DNA of 22,571 bases from the IMG/VR virus record IMGVR_UViG_3300005264_000630, positions 1-22,571 of that record; one strand, 5' to 3'. Shown here piece after piece: positions 7,938 through 22,571 of the stretch. Each line of letters starts with the position of its first letter. Within the stretch, counting starts at the first letter, position 1. A program made the position numbers and the translations under genes. The notes under the pieces are model-generated. The model was not told where the DNA came from. It saw only the letters and a program-made list of their open reading frames with translations, and did not search any database. The stretch is from a virus.

Positions 7938-8630
7938 ATGATACATTGTCAAATATGTGGTAAAGAATTAACATTAAAAGGTTTAGCGAACCATGTAATT
8001 TGTCATAACCTAACGTCTGAAAAATATTATGAATTATATTTAAAAACTCCTAATGAAGGAAACTGTAGAACATGTGATGCTATAACAAAATTTATTAATA
8101 TTCGTGAAGGTTATAGAAAATTTTGTAGCACAAGATGCAGTACATTAAATATAAATGTTCAAAAGAAGAGAAAAAATACTTGCAATAAAAAGTATGGTGT
8201 TGATTCTCCAGCGAAGGACGAAAGAGTTAAAATTAAGATGATAGAAAACTCCAAGAAAGTTTGTATGGAAAAATATGGAGTCTCTAATTATCTTTCTTCA
8301 AATGAGTTTAAAGAAAAATATAGACGTTACATATTTAGTGGTAGAGTTAATAAAATTTCCAAACCCCAAAGAAAATTATTTAAATTAGTGAAAAATTTAT
8401 TTATTGATGCTGAATTAGAAGTTCCATGTTTAAATTTTTCAATGGATATTGCGATTCCAAGTGAAATGTTATCAATTGAATATGATGGAAGTTATTGGCA
8501 TCAAGGTCGTGAAGATTATGACAATAGAAGACAAAAATTGATAGAAAATGAAGGTTGGAAAGTTATAAGATTTAGAGATTATATACCAAGCCATAATGAG
8601 CTTATACAAAAAATTATAGATGTTATTTAA
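7938..8630 (+). CDS. Free-standing homing endonuclease, Vsr/EDxHD-type
   Basis: This is a 230-residue endonuclease. It has a C2H2-like finger (Cys4, Cys7, His19, His23), then a four-Cys knuckle (Cys43, Cys46, Cys63, Cys67), then two CxxKYGV units (NKKYGVDSPAKDE and MEKYGVSNYLSS) typical of phage homing endonuclease DNA-binding regions. The C-terminal nuclease core carries Asp170, Glu181-Tyr-Asp183, WHQ with His188, Asp195, Arg198 and GWKVIRF. This matches the Vsr-like fold of EDxHD homing enzymes such as I-Bth0305I. Its ATG is two bases after the previous stop and has no clear ribosome-binding site, suggesting low or coupled expression. Both flanking genes look intact, so it is a free-standing intergenic invader, not an intron or intein. 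It shares its nuclease domain with the 15379-15924 product. Confidence 0.85.
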   Translation: MIHCQICGKELTLKGLANHVICHNLTSEKYYELYLKTPNEGNCRTCDAITKFINIREGYRKFCSTRCSTLNINVQKKRKNTCNKKYGVDSPAKDERVKIKMIENSKKVCMEKYGVSNYLSSNEFKEKYRRYIFSGRVNKISKPQRKLFKLVKNLFIDAELEVPCLNFSMDIAIPSEMLSIEYDGSYWHQGREDYDNRRQKLIENEGWKVIRFRDYIPSHNELIQKIIDVI

Positions 8631-10876: not shown

Positions 10877-11134
10877 ATGAGCGAACTTCATGAACAATAT
10901 GATGGTATGCTTACTACACTCAGAGAAACATTTGAAGATTTTATGGATGAAGCTGAAAAAGGTAAAGAAGGTCGAGGAAGCAAAACATCCGCCCTTAAAG
11001 CTCGAAAACTTAGTAGTAAATTGGCGAATGGTCTTAAAGACTTTAGATCATTATCAATTGATAATGATAAAGCAAAACCTGTTCAGAAAAGAAATGCAGC
11101 TTCAGGAGAAGAACCACCTGCTTCAACATATTAA
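10877..11134 (+). CDS. Small basic histone-H1-like (Hc1-type) protein
   Basis: This 85-residue protein has AAGGAGG before its ATG. The N-terminal half is helical and acidic (LRETFEDFMDEAEKGK). The centre, GSKTSALKARKLSSKLANGL followed by KDFRSLSIDNDKAK, matches the GNK-AA-x-R-x-R, then K-x-(Y/F)-R-x-x-SI-x-x-(E/D)KA pattern of the Hc1 family, the chlamydial H1-like nucleoid protein also found in many bacteria. The long Lys/Ala tail of Hc1 is replaced by a short polar end. The family can bind DNA, but a chaperone or virion role is possible here. It forms a one-gene unit between two strong terminators, which implies tuned, possibly high, expression. The Hc1 relation is by eye. Confidence 0.5.
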   Translation: MSELHEQYDGMLTTLRETFEDFMDEAEKGKEGRGSKTSALKARKLSSKLANGLKDFRSLSIDNDKAKPVQKRNAASGEEPPASTY

Positions 11135-11482: not shown

Positions 11483-12199
11483 ATGAAAACTTCATTCGCT
11501 AGCATGAGTCAAAATGTTGCTACAAGACGTTTTGGTGGCACAAAAATAGGAGTTGCGGATCCTTATGTTACTGGATATCATTATGTATGGTTTGACTTAA
11601 TTCCAGTTAAATTACCTGAGTATGTTGTAACAGGAAACTCAGGTATTTCAAGTACAGGAGATATTTCTACAGTATTGGCATCAACATGTCTTTCAGTTAC
11701 TCCACCAGGAGGAACTTTAAATAAAGTTGAATTTACCGGTTTAGGTGGAATTAAATGGGCAGTGCCAGGAAATATTGATTACGGTAATACAGTATCTGTT
11801 AAATTCTTTGAATTTAATAAAACTCCTTTATTAGACATTATGCACGGTTGGGTAAAAATGATGAGAGATTACCGAACTGGTATAAGTGGTCTTGAAGATG
11901 GCAGTGACGGAGGAGGATATTCTAAGAGTACTTATGCTTGCATTATGTATTATTGGACAACTGCTCCAGATGGAAAAACCGTTGAATATTATGCCTGCTA
12001 TGATGGCGTATTTCCAACAAAAGATCCTCAAGATCTTTTTACAAGTGACGTTGAAACTGTAGGAAGACTTGATGTAGAGATTGAATTTAATGTTGATTAT
12101 GCATGGCATGAACCTTGGGTTCTTAGCACATGTCAGACATATGCAGATTCATTTGCTGCAAGTTATACAAATGTTGAGGATTATGGTAAGAAATATTAA
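11483..12199 (+). CDS. Tail tube protein
   Basis: This 238-residue protein is longer than T4 gp19 (163). It builds the inner tube through which DNA passes. The core pattern is typical of contractile-phage tube proteins: CLSVTPPGGTLNKVEFTGLG near residues 72-92, then a beta strand NTVSVKFFEFNKTPLLDIMH, WVKMMRDYRTGISGL, an acidic strand-loop region and the closing VEIEFNVDYAW. AGGAGG lies upstream of ATG 11483. The extra ~60 C-terminal residues and the Gly/Ser-rich N-terminal loop are probably additions on the tube surface. It stands downstream of the sheath as in most myoviruses, but a terminator pair and two small genes lie between them. Confidence 0.85.
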   Translation: MKTSFASMSQNVATRRFGGTKIGVADPYVTGYHYVWFDLIPVKLPEYVVTGNSGISSTGDISTVLASTCLSVTPPGGTLNKVEFTGLGGIKWAVPGNIDYGNTVSVKFFEFNKTPLLDIMHGWVKMMRDYRTGISGLEDGSDGGGYSKSTYACIMYYWTTAPDGKTVEYYACYDGVFPTKDPQDLFTSDVETVGRLDVEIEFNVDYAWHEPWVLSTCQTYADSFAASYTNVEDYGKKY

Positions 12200-12234: not shown

Positions 12235-12732
12235 ATGGATAATAAAGAGTTAAAGCTATATGCCGGACATGTCGTTATAAATAGTAAACTTACAAAGGAG
12301 TCTAAATTTCAAATCCTTGAGTTTATTAAAAATGCATCTCCTGAGCAAATTAAAGTTTTTATCATGGATGGTAAAATGGTCAAGTTAGATGAGCAATCAG
12401 CTCAAATTGCAAGTGATCGTTTTGATGTTACAGTTGACACTGTTGAACTTCGTGAATTCTTTGAGTATGCTGGTTCTCTTAATGCCATTGGTGAAAAAGG
12501 TCTCGGTACTATTAACCAATGCAAGAAAACAAAATGTTACAAACTCAAAGGTGATGAAAAGAAAAAATGTATAAAATTATGTGAGATTGCTGGACATAAG
12601 AGTATGATCGGTGGACTCACTGCAGGCAAATCAAGATGTAAAGTTGCAAGAAAACCAGAAAAATGTATTGCAAGATTTGATTCGACAATTAAAAGACATC
12701 AAGATGCAATTCAAAAGAAAGCTGCAAAATAA
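12235..12732 (+). CDS. Six-cysteine paralog family, member 1
   Basis: This 165-residue protein is of unknown function, with GAGGAGAG before ATG 12235. The N-terminal ~75 residues are helical. The C-terminal half has cysteines at 96, 101, 112, 116, 135 and 144, i.e. C-x4-C-x10-C-x3-C-x18-C-x8-C, followed by a basic helix ending in KKAAK. Two other genes (14226-14843 and 14843-15382) have nearly the same spacing, so they form a paralogous family inside the tail block. The paired CxxxC segments suggest a zinc site or a disulphide-pinned helical hairpin. Unlike the other two, this member lacks a hydrophobic stretch before the cysteines. It lies between the tube and chaperone-like genes. Confidence 0.7.
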   Translation: MDNKELKLYAGHVVINSKLTKESKFQILEFIKNASPEQIKVFIMDGKMVKLDEQSAQIASDRFDVTVDTVELREFFEYAGSLNAIGEKGLGTINQCKKTKCYKLKGDEKKKCIKLCEIAGHKSMIGGLTAGKSRCKVARKPEKCIARFDSTIKRHQDAIQKKAAK

Positions 12733-12802
12733 AGAAGATATAGTAAAAGTATCAAATAATATATGAACAAGTTAATTTAAATGTGAAAATAAGGAGATCA
12801 AA

Positions 12803-13591
12803 ATGTTTAAAGGATTCAACGCTAAATATCCTGAGTATGAAGTAACGACTCCTCAGACAAAGCAAACTTTCACTTTGAGAAGTCTTAACGTGGCTGAAGA
12901 GGAAAGAATGAAGGGTAGCTTCATGAGTCCTCAAAAAATTACCGAGCACTTAAATAAAATTATTTATGAATCTCTGGTAAAGAAGCCAAAAGAAATAACT
13001 GACTTCGACTCATTTTTAAAGTTTGTAACGACAAAGGACCGCGACGCATTATTGTACGGGTTATATCATATTTCTTATGAAGAAATAAGGAACTATGATG
13101 TAACCTGTACTTCTTGTAGAAAAGAATATCCAATTACTATTAAAGCATCTGACACATTCTCTGCATCTTTATATCCTGAAGATGATATTCTCAGAAAGAC
13201 TCATGAGGTTCCTCTTCCTGTTACAAAAGGGGTTACTGCATTAATCAAACAACCCACTCTTAAAGATGAACTTGAAATGTATCAGAGACAGTCTATTCAA
13301 CCGGGTGCTAAAATAGATGTTTTGACCGAAGCTCTTGCTGTCGCACAATTTCATCAAGATATTGAGAAGCAAACTGAACCTGACGTTTATAGCGAAAGGT
13401 CTGACATTGTCAATGCTTATATGACTTTGCCTCCTATTGATAGGAGAAAAATAAACGATAAATATAAAGAAGAGTTTGGTCAATACGAGATTGCATTAAA
13501 TATGATGTCCCATTGTAAACATTGTGGGAATGAAGATTTAATGAATATAGATCTCGTGGAAAACTTTTTTCGTATGGTGTACGGACTTTGA
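12803..13591 (+). CDS. T4 gp26-like baseplate / tail assembly chaperone, short form
   Basis: This 262-residue protein has AAGGAG before ATG 12803. It resembles the T4-baseplate (gp26-type) family and occupies the position of tail assembly chaperones, downstream of the tube. Two Cys pairs, Cys102-x2-Cys105 (CTSC) and Cys238-x2-Cys241 (CKHC), are far apart in sequence but could close one zinc site around a helical middle domain. The frame ends at TGA 13589-13591. The +1 frame is open across this stop and continues 63 codons, and the last codons are CTT TGA, so the protein is probably made in two lengths by programmed frameshifting, as is common for tail chaperones. The family assignment is moderate. 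The split Cys pairs and open +1 frame are seen directly. Confidence 0.65.
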   Translation: MFKGFNAKYPEYEVTTPQTKQTFTLRSLNVAEEERMKGSFMSPQKITEHLNKIIYESLVKKPKEITDFDSFLKFVTTKDRDALLYGLYHISYEEIRNYDVTCTSCRKEYPITIKASDTFSASLYPEDDILRKTHEVPLPVTKGVTALIKQPTLKDELEMYQRQSIQPGAKIDVLTEALAVAQFHQDIEKQTEPDVYSERSDIVNAYMTLPPIDRRKINDKYKEEFGQYEIALNMMSHCKHCGNEDLMNIDLVENFFRMVYGL

Positions 13592-13592
13592 T
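13586..13592 (+). promoter_or_regulatory. Candidate +1 programmed frameshift site CTT TGA T
   Basis: CTT (13586-13588) followed by TGA (13589-13591) ends the short form. This is the same codon-plus-stop combination as the bacterial release-factor-2 (prfB) +1 shift. Slipping one base puts TTT in the P site and continues with GAT GGC ATT. A second slip-prone run, TTT TTT C at 13565-13571, lies upstream in the 41-base overlap of the two frames (13551-13591). Confidence 0.55.
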
Positions 13593-13781
13593 GGCATTAC
13601 TAAGTACCGCACAATTATGGACGAAAATTTGTTTTCATGCATGGAACTTACTAAGCAACAATATTATCCAAGTCTCATGTTAATGCCAATAAATCGTTTT
13701 CATAGTTTTCTTAAATGGAAAGCGAAGTTAGAAGAAGATAAGCAAAAAGCAATGGAAGAAGAACTTGCCTCAATCAAATAA
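13590..13781 (+). CDS. Frameshift extension of the chaperone-like protein
   Basis: In the +1 frame relative to 12803-13591, 63 codons run from GAT 13590 to TAA 13779-13781. The segment (DGITKYRTIMDENLFSCMEL, then YYPSLMLMPINRFHSFLKW, then a Lys/Glu-rich helix to ASIK) is protein-like and fills the gap to the gp25-like gene. It has no credible start of its own: the first in-frame ATG (13617) has no ribosome-binding site. It is therefore best read as the C-terminal part of a ~325-residue fusion made by frameshifting. In tail chaperones such an extension usually contacts the tape measure protein. A sequencing error is the alternative. Confidence 0.55.
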   Translation, partial: DGITKYRTIMDENLFSCMELTKQQYYPSLMLMPINRFHSFLKWKAKLEEDKQKAMEEELASIK

Positions 13782-13794
13782 TTAGTAGAGACTT

Positions 13795-14223
13795 ATGGCA
13801 AATATACTTGATAGATTTCAAAAATCAGTAGTCGGTTCAAAAACTAGATATTCAGATTTTATCGACGTAATATCTCCATCCGGGGATTTTACGCGTATTA
13901 CTGATATAAATGTTATCTTAAAGTCCTGGTTTAAAATTCTCATAACTCCAACTCGTACTGTAGATCATGATCCTGAATTTGGATGTGATTTATATAAATA
14001 CGTCTTTAGTCCCGCCGACAATGAAACAATGCGTGATATAATTGATGAAGTTACATATGCAATAAGAACGTATGATAACAGAGCGAAACTTCAAGGAGTT
14101 ACAGTTGAATTTTTAAATAATCGAAAGGGGTTTTCAATAAATATTATTGCTGAATATGGTGGACAAACTGGGGAAATTCAAGCTGTCATTGATAAAACTA
14201 CTTTTAATATATTAGGAAATTAA
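13795..14223 (+). CDS. Baseplate wedge protein, gp25-like
   Basis: This 142-residue protein is close to T4 gp25 (132). It belongs to the GPW/gp25 family, a conserved wedge protein that nucleates sheath assembly on the baseplate. The pattern is clear: a central segment INVILKSWFKILITPTRTVD, then DPEFGCDLYKYVFSP (the position of the family's hallmark E-x-R-loop), a helix MRDIIDEVTYAIRTYD and a final beta hairpin LQGVTVEFLNNRKGFSINII. The start at ATG 13795 follows the frameshift-extension stop by 13 bases, with a weak purine-rich AGTAGAGA site. The next gene begins two bases after its stop. Confidence 0.85.
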   Translation: MANILDRFQKSVVGSKTRYSDFIDVISPSGDFTRITDINVILKSWFKILITPTRTVDHDPEFGCDLYKYVFSPADNETMRDIIDEVTYAIRTYDNRAKLQGVTVEFLNNRKGFSINIIAEYGGQTGEIQAVIDKTTFNILGN

Positions 14224-14225
14224 TT

Positions 14226-14843
14226 ATGGACGACTTTCTTAGACAAGCATCACATGACTTCTGTAAAAAGGTCTTAACAAAGTCCGTAATGGAAAGTGTT
14301 TCCTTACGCAATAAATTATCATTTGTTGAGCAAGTCAACCTTTGTGAGTATATAGATAAAATAAGTTATGAAGAATCAGTTGAATTAGTATTTGAGTTAG
14401 GGGTAAGGGACTATGAGTCAAAATTTGGAAGACTCTTGAAGGTAGGATTAGCTGCAGTGGCTGGGGGGTTTGCTGCAGCACGATTTGGTACTAAAAAAGT
14501 CGCCGGGTTTGGGTTAGGTGCCCTTTTAGGTTATATGTTTAAAAAGGCAACTGACCCATGCTGGCAAGCATGTCGAAAACAACCATCTGATATTAAGAAT
14601 ATATGTAAATATATTTGCTACATGAAAGGTTGTGAATCAATAATGTCAGATATTAAAAACCAAATTGGAAAATGTGATGATACTGTAAATCCTTTAAAAT
14701 GTGAGAAACAATTAAATAAAACTTTTTCTAAATGGCAAGAAAAGAGAGAAAATTATAAAGAGAAGTTGGAGTTGGCAAAAGAAGAGTATGCTAAAAAGGA
14801 AGCTACAAGAAGACTTAAACTCCGCAAAAAGGGAGCTGAGTAA
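14226..14843 (+). CDS. Six-cysteine paralog family, member 2
   Basis: This 205-residue protein is of unknown function. The helical N-terminus is followed by a Gly/Ala-rich hydrophobic region (about residues 70-105, VGLAAVAGGFAAARFG and VAGFGLGALLGYMF) that could insert in a membrane or pack as a hairpin. The cysteine block follows: Cys112, 116, 127, 131, 150 and 159, C-x3-C-x10-C-x3-C-x18-C-x8-C, with an extra Cys136. A long Lys/Glu-rich helix closes the protein (about 160-205). The last two spacings equal those in members 1 and 3. AGGAAA lies before ATG 14226, and the stop overlaps the start of member 3 by one base, so the two are co-translated. Confidence 0.7.
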   Translation: MDDFLRQASHDFCKKVLTKSVMESVSLRNKLSFVEQVNLCEYIDKISYEESVELVFELGVRDYESKFGRLLKVGLAAVAGGFAAARFGTKKVAGFGLGALLGYMFKKATDPCWQACRKQPSDIKNICKYICYMKGCESIMSDIKNQIGKCDDTVNPLKCEKQLNKTFSKWQEKRENYKEKLELAKEEYAKKEATRRLKLRKKGAE

Positions 14844-15382
14844 TGGACAAACAATTTTTAATTAACTTTATTGCTAAAAGTGAATATATAAAATCCAAGA
14901 CATCATTTAAAGAACAACTTGGTATGATTAAATGGGTTAAATCTTTATCTGAGCAAGATTTAAAAATTGTTTTAAATGAAGTTGAAATAGATGCTGAAGT
15001 TCCAACTCCTGATGGTCCAGCTAAAAAAGTTTTAAGTATTGGATTTGTAACTGCTGCTGTTATACTTCCTGGTGGAATGGCATTACACGCAGCTTCTCAA
15101 TATTTATTGAAAGATTTTAATTATAAATGTGAATTAAAATGTCAAAATGATAAAACAATTAAAAATAAAGCTTTATGTAGCAGACATTGTAAAACTGCTG
15201 CTTTAAAAAATATTGTAGAAAAATTAGAGAAAGAGTATAAAGGTTGTGACGCTTCTAAAGATCCAAGTAAATGTAGAAAAAGATTATTACCATTAATTAA
15301 AGAGTATACAAATAAAAGAAATAAAGCAATATTGCAATTATCATATGCAACTAAAAAAGCAAGAATGCAAGGAAAAATATGA
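14843..15382 (+). CDS. Six-cysteine paralog family, member 3
   Basis: This 179-residue protein starts at ATG 14843, overlapping the previous stop by one base, with GGGAG upstream. Layout matches member 2: a helical N-terminus (1-50), a hydrophobic stretch (about 63-90, VLSIGFVTAAVILPGGMAL), then Cys96, 100, 112, 116, 135 and 144 (C-x3-C-x11-C-x3-C-x18-C-x8-C) and a basic C-terminal helix. Each member has a P-x-K-C step at the last Cys (PSKC here, PLKC in member 2, PEKC in member 1). The function is unknown. The membrane-like segment plus a Cys-stapled helical domain could suit a virion protein that meets the host envelope, but this is inference. Confidence 0.7.
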   Translation: MDKQFLINFIAKSEYIKSKTSFKEQLGMIKWVKSLSEQDLKIVLNEVEIDAEVPTPDGPAKKVLSIGFVTAAVILPGGMALHAASQYLLKDFNYKCELKCQNDKTIKNKALCSRHCKTAALKNIVEKLEKEYKGCDASKDPSKCRKRLLPLIKEYTNKRNKAILQLSYATKKARMQGKI

Positions 15383-15924
15383 GTAAAAAATCCGAATTAA
15401 TGAAAGCTAAATATAAAGATCCAAGTGAAATTAAAAAACTAAAAAAAGTTATTAATACAAAAGAAGCAAAACAAAAAAGAGCAGAATCAATGAGAAAGGC
15501 ATGGAAGGACCCTGAAACAAGAAAAAGATATCTTGAAGGAAGAAAAAAATATAGACAAACTGATAAAGCAAAAGAAAATTTTGAAAAACATAGACAATTT
15601 ATGATTAATGGTGGAGCTGTTCATGCTGCGTCATATATTAAAAATATATCAAAACCTCAAGTTGAATTATTTAATATAATTAAAGAAATATTTTCAACTG
15701 CAAAATTAAATTATGTAGAAGATATGTTTTTAATAGATGTCGCAATACCTCAATTAAAAATTGCTTTTGAATATGATTGTTGGTATTGGCACCAAGATAA
15801 AAAGAAAGATAATGATAGACAGAATAAATTAGAATCTATGGGATGGTCTTTTATAAGATATTTAGACTATGTTCCAACCAAGGAACAAATTATAAAAGAT
15901 ACAAATAAATTCTTATTTGTATAG
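15379..15924 (+). CDS. Free-standing homing endonuclease, Vsr/EDxHD-type
   Basis: This 181-residue enzyme starts at ATG 15379 in a four-base ATGA overlap with member 3 of the six-Cys family; AAGGA precedes it. The N-terminal ~95 residues are very Lys/Arg-rich and helical, with KAWKDPETRKRYLEGRKKY resembling the short DNA-binding helices of NUMOD-type modules. The nuclease core has Asp120, Glu131-Tyr-Asp133, WHQ with His138, Asp146-Arg147 and GWSFIRYLDYVP, matching the 7938-8630 endonuclease residue for residue in the key positions. The two also share ISKPQ-x5-F before the core. It lacks the zinc fingers of the other enzyme. Its stop overlaps the ribosome-binding site of the next gene. Adjacent genes appear uninterrupted, so it is an intergenic insertion. 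Confidence 0.85.
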   Translation: MSKKSELMKAKYKDPSEIKKLKKVINTKEAKQKRAESMRKAWKDPETRKRYLEGRKKYRQTDKAKENFEKHRQFMINGGAVHAASYIKNISKPQVELFNIIKEIFSTAKLNYVEDMFLIDVAIPQLKIAFEYDCWYWHQDKKKDNDRQNKLESMGWSFIRYLDYVPTKEQIIKDTNKFLFV

Positions 15925-20217: not shown

Positions 20218-21545
20218 CCAATTTGAGGCATTAAACTATCTAAATAATCAGATGTTGCCTTATCCTCAGCACTAACACGATCTCCAGCTTCAGTTTGAAA
20301 ATTCTCAGTGTCAGTTACATTTTCAGCACCACCCATTGTGTGAGAAAATTGTTTTTGTGGAGGAACTACTTGACCAGCTGAAGTTGCACTCGTCACAGTT
20401 TCCTTATATCCAGGACCTTCTATTTTATAACCGCTAGTTTGTCCTGCAACATTTTGTTTAAGATTTAAGTTTCTTTCATTAGCGGCCAAAGCTGCTTGAC
20501 TCTTAATTCCTGCTACATATTTACCAGGTCCATGATGTTCTCCATTCTTAGGATCTGTATACATATCTCTTGCTGTATCTTCATCTCTTAAAATATCAAG
20601 ATAAGCTTCCAAAGTTGATTTATCTGGATTTCCATCATCAGCTCCTGCCAACATACTTGAATATAATCCACCGAAGTCAATTCTTATATCAACAATTCCA
20701 AGTCTTTGATTCCAAGCAATTTGTTGTTGATCTCCGCCTTTAATTATAGTGATGTTGCTTATAAATGCAGCTCTTAAATCAAATAATCCTCGACATTTAA
20801 TTTTATGTAAAAATGGCCAGCTGTAAGTATGACCATCTTTAGTTTGAGGTAAATTAAGACATAATATAGCAGCAATAGGACCTATTATATATTTCTCAGT
20901 TGCTTCAGCATTTCCTGGAGCAGGATTGTATAATCGGCATGTTATTGAATAAGATGGTTGAAACCCACTATTTTTCCAAATTTGTGGAAAGTCAACTCTT
21001 GCTCCTGCCATGATAGATGATAATACAGCGCCTCCTCCTTTTAAAGAAGGTATTGAATTTGCAAGAGCATTTCCTACATTTTCAACTCCTGCTTTTCCAG
21101 CTGAAACTCCACTTCCTAATGCTCCTGCCATCCCACCTGCTTCTTTTAGAGCGGCAATTATTTTATCAGCTCCCTCTCCAGCACTTCGAGATCCTGTTAT
21201 TTGAGCAAGTTCAGCTGCTGCAGATGATGCAACGTCTGTAACTCTATTTAAAAAACTATCAGAATATTCATTTGAAAAAGAATCTGTTGGAAAATTATCT
21301 GCTAAAAATGCAAGTCTTATAGGAGTTGACTCTAATTGATAACCATATGTTTCAAGAAGAGCTTTATAACCATTATTTCCATCCCATGCTTTATCAAGTT
21401 TGAATAGACTCAAACCTCTTTGAAATTTAGGTAAATGAGGAACTATTTCAAGTACAGGCATTGAATTAAATTTAACATTCTCACTTACTAATGTATCAGG
21501 AGGCATTCCAAAGTATTTAGGAAGTTGTGTCATTCGTAAAGCCAT
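20214..21545 (-). CDS. Baseplate tail-tube cap/initiator, gp48/gp54-like
   Basis: This 443-residue protein probably belongs with the T4 gp48/gp54-type proteins that cap the baseplate hub and start the tail tube. The supporting core is in the middle: FPQIWKNSGFQPSYSITCRL, a YNP turn, IIGPIAAILCLNLPQ, TYSWPFLHKIKCRGLFDLR, then SNITIIKGGDQQQIAWNQRL and VDIRIDFGGLYSSML. Before this lies a Gly/Ala-rich, low-complexity insertion (about residues 100-185), and after it a ~120-residue polar tail. It reads from ATG 21545 with AAGGAGATATA upstream and shares one base with the stop of the gene before it. It converges with the 19105-20217 gene with overlapping stops. The gp48/gp54 relation is a pattern-level call. 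Confidence 0.6.
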   Translation of the reverse strand: MALRMTQLPKYFGMPPDTLVSENVKFNSMPVLEIVPHLPKFQRGLSLFKLDKAWDGNNGYKALLETYGYQLESTPIRLAFLADNFPTDSFSNEYSDSFLNRVTDVASSAAAELAQITGSRSAGEGADKIIAALKEAGGMAGALGSGVSAGKAGVENVGNALANSIPSLKGGGAVLSSIMAGARVDFPQIWKNSGFQPSYSITCRLYNPAPGNAEATEKYIIGPIAAILCLNLPQTKDGHTYSWPFLHKIKCRGLFDLRAAFISNITIIKGGDQQQIAWNQRLGIVDIRIDFGGLYSSMLAGADDGNPDKSTLEAYLDILRDEDTARDMYTDPKNGEHHGPGKYVAGIKSQAALAANERNLNLKQNVAGQTSGYKIEGPGYKETVTSATSAGQVVPPQKQFSHTMGGAENVTDTENFQTEAGDRVSAEDKATSDYLDSLMPQIG

Positions 21546-22571
21546 TAGTTTATATCTCCTTCTAAAATTTGTTTAGCTAATGGGTCAAAGTGACCTCTAT
21601 CTTGATTGCCCATATTATTAGCAATTGATTGCATTGAGCTTGACATTGAATTTGTAATGTTATTAATAACTGTGGCAGTTGTCAATGAGTTCGTCTTAGC
21701 AAAATCATCCATTGCTTCTTTTTGAGCTTTTGCTTGTTCTTGAATAAGAAATTTAGTTTTAGCAGTATCGCTTATAGCATCCTTTTTAGCAATGTCAGAA
21801 CCTGAAGTTACAGCATTTTCAACTCTATCTTTTATTTCATCTGATAATGGAGATATTAATTCTCCAGCATGAACTTTAACCAATCCTGTCTTTGCCACAA
21901 GTCCGCCAAGTGCTGCTTGAGGAAAATGATTTTTTGGAGAATTTTGTTCATAGTTTGCAAGTTTTTCTTCTGTTCTTCTTATTAATTTCCTATGTATATT
22001 TCTCGATGATGGACTATTTTCTCTTGGACCTTGTCTTCTAAGATTTTCTAATCTTCTTCTCAATATGTCTTCTTGGGACATATATCCTTTTTCAGATCTA
22101 TATGAATCATAATTAACATGAGCTTTCTTTTCTGATTCTCTCTTTGCTTTATCAGCTGCATCTTTTTTAGGATCTTTAGTTTTTCCTTCTCCTGCCCATT
22201 CTTTTATCTTATCTCCTATAAATGGAATACCTGATAATTTTTCAACTAAATATGTTTTAATTGATGTAAACATATTTTTAAATATATGTCCTACCCATTT
22301 GAATGGAAGCAATACTGTTTCAGCAACCTTTTTATTCAACGCTGGAATTGTCTTTGTTACAAGTTTCTTGGCTGATTTAAACATGAATTTCATTGTTGTC
22401 CAAGGAAACATTATAAACTTAAGAATACCTTTAGCAAGTTTCTTTATACTCTTTCCTATAAAGTCCATTCCTTTTGCTATATTCTTTCCTCCAAGAGCTC
22501 CCATAAGTCCACCGGCAATTGCTCCAACTGCGCCGCCAACTAATGTACCGACTCCGGGTATGAATGACCCA
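21545..22571 (-). CDS. Tape-measure-like tail protein, C-terminal part (partial)
   Basis: The frame is open from the right edge to TAA 21545-21547 (on the minus strand), so the true start is outside the window. An internal ATG at 22504 is unlikely to be the start because the coding pattern continues upstream (IPGVGTLVGGAVGAIAGGLM). The visible part has a Gly/Ala hydrophobic segment, then basic amphipathic helices (KSIKKLAKGILKF, AKKLVTKTIPALNKKV), a charged linker and a C-terminal region with LGGLVAKTGLVKVHAGELIS, a motif frequent near the end of tape measure and related tail proteins. The tape measure sets tail length and passes through the tube. Gene order (next to the gp48/gp54-like gene) fits. 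Another large tail protein cannot be ruled out. Confidence 0.6.
   Translation of the reverse strand, partial: GSFIPGVGTLVGGAVGAIAGGLMGALGGKNIAKGMDFIGKSIKKLAKGILKFIMFPWTTMKFMFKSAKKLVTKTIPALNKKVAETVLLPFKWVGHIFKNMFTSIKTYLVEKLSGIPFIGDKIKEWAGEGKTKDPKKDAADKAKRESEKKAHVNYDSYRSEKGYMSQEDILRRRLENLRRQGPRENSPSSRNIHRKLIRRTEEKLANYEQNSPKNHFPQAALGGLVAKTGLVKVHAGELISPLSDEIKDRVENAVTSGSDIAKKDAISDTAKTKFLIQEQAKAQKEAMDDFAKTNSLTTATVINNITNSMSSSMQSIANNMGNQDRGHFDPLAKQILEGDIN

Follow-up and report, generated by a model that had tools for sequence, protein, structure and literature searches.

A multi-copy family of small proteins with pairwise-retained cysteines in the tail locus of contractile-tailed phages

Results

The window analysed here is an entire 22.6-kb viral contig (22,571 nucleotides, IMG/VR record IMGVR_UViG_3300005264_000630). 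It contains a contractile-tail locus with sheath, tube-like, hub-like, gp25-like and wedge genes assigned by PHROG, the tube label of one of them resting on its place after the sheath. Within this locus lie three genes, P0001, P0002 and P0003, whose products share a module of six cysteines (C1–C6). These proteins, together with their relatives, are referred to as the Cys-module family (Table 1).

Table 1 Features of the Cys-module genes and their neighbours (window coordinates; aa, amino acids)
Feature	Coordinates	Strand	Remarks
Tail tube-like protein	11483..12199	+	Left flank of slot A; PHROG virion structural protein, E 6e-12
P0001, 165 aa	12235..12732	+	Slot A: between tube gene and hub-like gene
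P0001 N-terminal helical domain, residues 1-67	12235..12435	+	Core K-x-Q-L-L-x-F-I...Q-L-K...D-G
P0001 stretch without nucleotide match in contig L003 (module replaced)	12430..12730	+	L003 otherwise 96-99% identical
P0001 six-Cys module C96-C144	12520..12666	+	Fixed-spacing pattern
Hub-like protein	12803..13591	+	Right flank of slot A; PHROG baseplate hub, E 3e-12
gp25-like baseplate wedge subunit	13795..14223	+	Left flank of slot B; PHROG E 1.5e-14
P0002, 205 aa	14226..14843	+	Slot B: between gp25-like wedge gene and 214-aa baseplate-locus gene
P0002 hydrophobic Gly/Ala-rich stretch, residues 69-105	14430..14540	+	Kyte-Doolittle
P0002 six-Cys module C112-C159	14559..14702	+	Fixed-spacing pattern
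P0003, 179 aa	14843..15382	+	Start codon overlaps P0002 end
P0003 hydrophobic stretch, residues 63-89	15029..15109	+	Kyte-Doolittle
P0003 six-Cys module C96-C144	15128..15274	+	Modelled helices 79-102 / 109-137 / 141-175
DUF559-type homing endonuclease	15379..15924	+	Inserted after P0003; outside Cys-module family; absent from L003

A preliminary description of the sequence had reported the pattern C-x3/4-C-x10/11-C-x3-C-x18-C-x8-C in the three products. The translations bear this out, giving C96-x4-C101-x10-C112-x3-C116-x18-C135-x8-C144 for P0001, C112-x3-C116-x10-C127-x3-C131-x18-C150-x8-C159 for P0002 and C96-x3-C100-x11-C112-x3-C116-x18-C135-x8-C144 for P0003. In a six-frame search of the window, these were the only open reading frames (ORFs) matched by the relaxed six-Cys pattern and by a strict 3-18-8 pattern. 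As had also been noted, the last three spacings are identical in all three, and each final cysteine lies in a P-x-K-C motif (PEKC, PLKC and PSKC, respectively). P0002 carries three extra cysteines at positions 13, 40 and 136, of which Cys136 falls in the x18 stretch. Outside the cysteine block the sequences had been described as very diverged; homology nevertheless extends beyond it: all three pairs cross-match in pairwise blastp, P0002 and P0003 with E = 7e-10 over ~188 residues, P0001 and P0002 with E = 4e-4, and P0001 and P0003 with E = 0.006, and the N-terminal domains are homologous too. These alignments mark P0001–P0003 as paralogues along their full length.

Relatives were collected by searches with the neighbouring gp25-like gene and with profiles, which gave 117 distinct family ORFs in IMG/VR contigs, mostly encoding proteins of 140–400 aa with an N-terminal helical domain. 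No credible family was returned by Pfam, PHROGs, NCBIfam and PADLOC scans of the P0001–P0003 family. Against 50,697 GenBank phages, tblastn of P0001–P0003 and of two divergent relatives, L018_6456 and L018_4466, gave nothing credible, and megablast with the whole window gave no match. The sole match in single-sequence scans of viral contigs was the near-identical contig L003, and a P0002-type profile found no member in bacterial and archaeal genomes. The earlier picture of an expanded tail-locus family without a name is thus upheld by the lack of library and GenBank matches and by the many relatives recovered from metagenomic phages. Matches to Stealth, DUF6065, CARD, AbiU and effector models in the library scans were single and sub-threshold, and were not used. 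With the hub-like neighbour as query, two contigs carrying further family members were recovered from archaeal metagenome-assembled genomes (MAGs). These contigs, L099 (63-kb) and L100 (211-kb), contain the tail locus of the same phage lineage and are assigned to Lokiarchaeota and Woesearchaeota MAGs. They are probably either mis-binned phage or viruses of those archaea, and an archaeal host for the lineage was not accepted from these bins, since binning is no proof of host.

The family is modular. P0002 and P0003 are fused as one ~400-aa protein in many relatives, while other members are split in two ORFs, contain two hairpins or long Lys/Ala-rich linkers, or have only the N-terminal domain. 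L003 (also G001), a 72-kb contig, matches the window at 96–99% identity along most of the stretch that they have in common, but not at P0001. The L003 copy of this protein, P0005, has 69% identity to it in residues 1–65 and then continues into a different, four-Cys module and a hydrophobic segment. The closest relative of the P0001 module is the C-terminus of a 320-aa protein in the 223-kb contig G002 (E 9.9e-12, 37% identity). Because the P0001 module is nearest to this protein while the L003 copy has another, the module evidently moves between proteins. Two further arrangements were observed. In L010 (3867-4106 and 4121-4435) the slot-A gene is apparently broken in two, the N-domain and the Cys module being encoded by ORFs in different frames, an arrangement conserved in L013 and L016. 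In L003 (6082-6636, P0004) and L009 (612-1148), the sheath gene is followed by an extra gene, absent from the window, whose product has a hydrophobic helix at its N-terminus and matches the Cys module weakly (E 0.003–0.005); this may be a third tail slot, in which a long loop separates C2 from C3.

For analysis of the cysteines, each module was registered by its fixed spacing, in the register with the most cysteines and blind to pairs. All six cysteines are present in 55 of the 118 modules; C1 and C4 are missing in 37, C5 and C6 in 15, and C2 and C3 in 3, while 8 modules have C2 and C3 alone left. Among the 15 possible pairings, 1-4/2-3/5-6 has 0 violations in the 118 modules and the next best has 26; for 95 non-redundant modules the counts are 0 and 24. 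The 8 two-Cys modules were assigned by hand to C2-C3, and the 110 modules without them still give 0 violations. None of 20,000 column shuffles reached 0 violations (minimum 27 of 55). On a tree with the cysteine columns masked, a minimum of 11 changes is required to explain the cysteine states, the minima for the single pairs being 6 (1-4), 2 (2-3) and 7 (5-6); well-supported branches alone force fewer, and the number of independent events is approximate. Loss of a disulphide usually takes both cysteines (PMC2628669). Given that they are lost only as pairs 1+4, 2+3 and 5+6, the module cysteines almost certainly form disulphides, paired C1-C4, C2-C3 and C5-C6. The cysteine record is in effect a natural disulphide-mapping experiment, and a precise pairing can therefore be stated for a family without any structure. 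A disulphide hairpin was one of two readings offered in the preliminary description; the pairwise loss, together with the predicted fold, decides for it and against the other, a zinc site, which is taken up below.

The even/odd cysteine count has been used as a test for cytosolic disulphide use (PMC3177088). Non-family proteins of five large contigs (G001–G004 and G020) showed 209 even and 259 odd counts, with no even excess. The disulphides are therefore peculiar to the Cys-module family, as would be expected if they form in the particle or outside the cytosol. Thioredoxin and glutaredoxin were absent from the 11 contigs scanned, with positive controls detected; a scan for sulphydryl oxidase (Evr1_Alr) gave no match, with the control equally silent.

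Structures of P0003 and P0001 were predicted by AlphaFold2 from the family alignment, with a mean pLDDT (predicted local distance difference test) of 91.4 and 90.5, respectively. Helices were predicted at residues 3-45 (four pieces) and 58-74 of P0003, followed by the three of its module, and at 3-45 (three pieces), 53-67, 70-101, 106-137 and 141-164 of P0001. The two models share the same helix plan, in which the Cys-module domain consists of three helices. C1 and C2 are placed on the first long helix, C3–C5 on the second and C6 at the start of the third, a predicted arrangement that suits the 1-4/2-3/5-6 pairing. Foldseek searches with the models against PDB and BFVD gave no match at E≤0.001, and the ferritin and tape-measure matches reflect generic helical likeness.

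A PDB-sequence profile search gave weak matches, several of the top ones being CX3C disulphide hairpins (Tim10, Tim13, vicilin hairpins and hairpinin peptides). Tim10 was the best match of all (E 0.012), and the hairpinin and vicilin matches were at E 0.26 or worse. The plant hairpin peptide model PF14861 matched weakly in 7 of 38 slot-A members, with a best E of 0.00033 in single members and no match for P0001. The plant alpha-hairpinins (C1X3C2XnC3X3C4; Antimicrobial21 and vicilin N-terminal hairpins) have the same CX3C-Xn-CX3C spacing, apart from the CX4C of the first pair in P0001, and are likewise basic helix-turn-helix structures. Their known pairing, C1-C4 and C2-C3 (PMC10136942), agrees with that indicated indirectly for the Cys-module family by pairwise loss. 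Unlike them, the family has a third disulphide C5-C6, a third helix, an N-terminal domain, a phage origin and no signal peptide, whereas alpha-hairpinins are short secreted peptides (<50 aa) cut from a signal-peptide precursor. No significant homology to the alpha-hairpinin model was found with PF14861 or PDB profiles, and since sequence similarity is sub-threshold the likeness, which is one of build, is likely convergent. The small Tim proteins (Tim9/10/13) share the twin CX3C on a helical hairpin with two intramolecular disulphides, but are short eukaryotic intermembrane-space chaperones without a third disulphide or an N-terminal domain; homology to Tim8/9/10/13 was not significant in the PDB profile search.

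The positions of the genes are strongly conserved. Slot A is occupied by a family member in 35/35 distinct loci with both flanks seen and slot B in 28/35; some of these loci were fetched by the family's own profiles, and loci reached only via neighbour genes agree. The slots are enclosed by a T4-type contractile tail module (sheath, tube, hub, gp25 and wedge), and unlike the components of that module, P0001–P0003 are assigned by no family library to any of them. Further members lie outside the tail slots in the five large contigs, so that the placement of the family inside a tail operon is right for the trio in the window and too narrow for its relatives, which also occupy head-core and spike positions. 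In G020, one member lies between a T4-type portal (Portal_T4, 3e-18) and a prohead protease (Peptidase_S77, 1.5e-13), and another adjoins a gpV-like spike gene. Another member directly follows a volactin-like gene. Because the genes sit among head, tail and spike genes, in conserved positions, the family proteins are quite probably virion components.

The module together with its tail is always basic across the family (median net charge +15, minimum +7; +16, +10 and +14 in P0001, P0002 and P0003), in contrast to the sheath, tube, hub-like and wedge neighbours, which are acidic. Of the basic helix previously described at the end of each protein, the charge is found in all three and the helix in the two that were modelled. 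A hydrophobic stretch upstream of the module had been described for two members, and Kyte-Doolittle analysis finds it in P0002 and P0003 and not in P0001: the best 19-residue means are 1.38 and 2.04 (on near-identical L003 copies) and 0.37, respectively.

Discussion

Overall, we lean towards the view that the Cys-module family comprises modular, small accessory virion proteins, disulphide-locked and arranged along the DNA path of contractile-tailed phages. In the model we propose, the N-terminal helical domain is the probable docking part, and is usually separated by a hydrophobic helix from the basic three-helix C-terminal domain. C1-C4 and C2-C3 would hold helices 1 and 2 together in a hairpin, and C5-C6 would fasten the turn between helices 2 and 3. 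The chains are probably incorporated in the particle, whether in the head core, the tail tube or baseplate, or the spike, with oxidation taking place there or outside the cell, and the basic, partly hydrophobic bundles would line the DNA path or travel with the DNA in ejection, contacting DNA or the host membrane. Since the portal, tube, hub and spike places follow the DNA exit path, lining that path or accompanying the DNA is the most economical shared function, although a role in ejection is proposed only tentatively. A stronger version, in which disulphide-locked ejection proteins along the whole exit route cross the tail tube reduced or extended and oxidise in the host envelope or released particle, so that forming the disulphides would itself be part of how DNA is delivered, is a good deal less likely.

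Phage ejection (pilot) and internal virion proteins are helical, basic and partly hydrophobic, and are encoded beside portal, tube and hub genes. The Cys-module family is like them in build and gene place, a functional analogy; we know of no disulphide-stapled paralogue set among such proteins, and Foldseek searches of PDB and BFVD found no sequence or fold match between the two.

Several observations weigh against this view. The segment upstream of the module reaches transmembrane-level hydrophobicity in only 35 of 95 modules, which leaves membrane contact uncertain. The 320-aa G002 protein (G002 91836-92798; L101:1498-2460), to whose end a module is fused, has a weak small-terminase (Terminase_2) match and lies near RecA-like and nuclease genes, unlike a structural protein; its first ~190 residues stand alone, without the module, in homologues in G003 and G020 with KH-like and RecA-like neighbours. 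P0002 has a weak AbiU match (PADLOC, E 0.007), which was not credited, and no other PADLOC match pointed to a defence protein. The lineage is without a cultured relative, and none of the family proteins has been observed in purified virions.

Alternatively, the proteins could stay in the tail, baseplate and head for good, as minor parts or plugs, with disulphides that merely stiffen them in the extracellular particle and with nothing ejected. This reading, which we regard as rather unlikely, accommodates the invariant tail-locus slots, the compact predicted helical bundle and a hydrophobicity often under transmembrane level, but members differ greatly in copy number and in fusion or fission, the reading does not account for the strong basic charge, and the swapping of a module between phages 96–99% identical elsewhere would be unusual for a load-bearing part. 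Membrane-associated chaperones of hub or wedge, working as the small T4 hub-assembly proteins do and absent from the finished particle, would account for the hydrophobic segments and for genes adjoining the hub-like and gp25-like genes; we consider such tail-assembly factors improbable, as disulphides are unexpected in the cytosol given no general cytosolic disulphide use in these phages, and one copy lies at a head position. Doubtful to a slightly greater degree is the idea that the structural operons carry, as cargo, genes for envelope proteins made in the cell during infection and serving superinfection exclusion or counter-defence. Rapid turnover, module swapping and the combination of a hydrophobic segment with a disulphide domain would suit such proteins, whereas the tube-hub slot is always filled, no signal peptide is apparent in the sequences and PADLOC gave no credible match.

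Two further alternatives concern the cysteines. The disulphides might be unremarkable if the hosts were thermophiles with an oxidising cytosol, as the two relatives in archaeal MAG bins could suggest; this is very unlikely, with a negative even/odd test over five contigs, one contig encoding a peptidoglycan amidase, and bins that do not establish a host. A zinc-binding domain using CX3C pairs, as in reduced small Tim proteins, whose twin CX3C can bind zinc (PMC3759932), is largely refuted and hardly tenable, because the pairs C1+C4, C2+C3 and C5+C6 are lost independently rather than kept together as four ligands, and modules that have lost C1+C4 or C2+C3 but kept the other pair retain only two of the four in the hairpin.

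The family of accessory proteins favoured here is modular, occurs in several copies and is never missing from the tail locus of its contractile-tailed phages, a lineage that extends to jumbo-phage size and is without close kin in GenBank. No family library searched assigns the Cys-module family. Plants and mitochondria already provide examples of the hairpin architecture; the family libraries and literature searched contained no multi-copy phage family of the kind with a third disulphide and with members in head, tail and spike loci. If present in the particle, these proteins would form a virion protein set that is, unusually, disulphide-stapled throughout, and the fact that they occur in all three kinds of locus hints at an unrecognised shared function, for which DNA ejection is the leading candidate.

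Other features of the window and related contigs

Two freestanding DUF559-type homing endonuclease genes are present in the window, one at 7938-8630 and the one following P0003. The latter represents a recent insertion or loss, the near-identical L003 having none between P0003 and the next gene. HNH-type genes are abundant in contigs related to the window, and the T4-type portal gene of G020 (L121:15724-18726) is interrupted by an intein with an HNH domain.

Between the sheath and tube genes of the window (10877-11134) lies a gene, conserved in L003, whose small Lys-rich product has a histone H1-like (Hc1) match below threshold. A tape-measure-like gene on the minus strand (21545-22504) contains patches only 77–95% identical to L003, with flanks at ~99%. 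In G002, a gene at 122447-123490 (L089:8447-9490) matches Pfam Volactin at E 1.5e-73 and adjoins a family member with CBM_14-like repeats, and the gpV/PAAR spike operon of the same 223-kb contig encodes an M48 metallopeptidase at 86019-87293 (L087:10019-11293).

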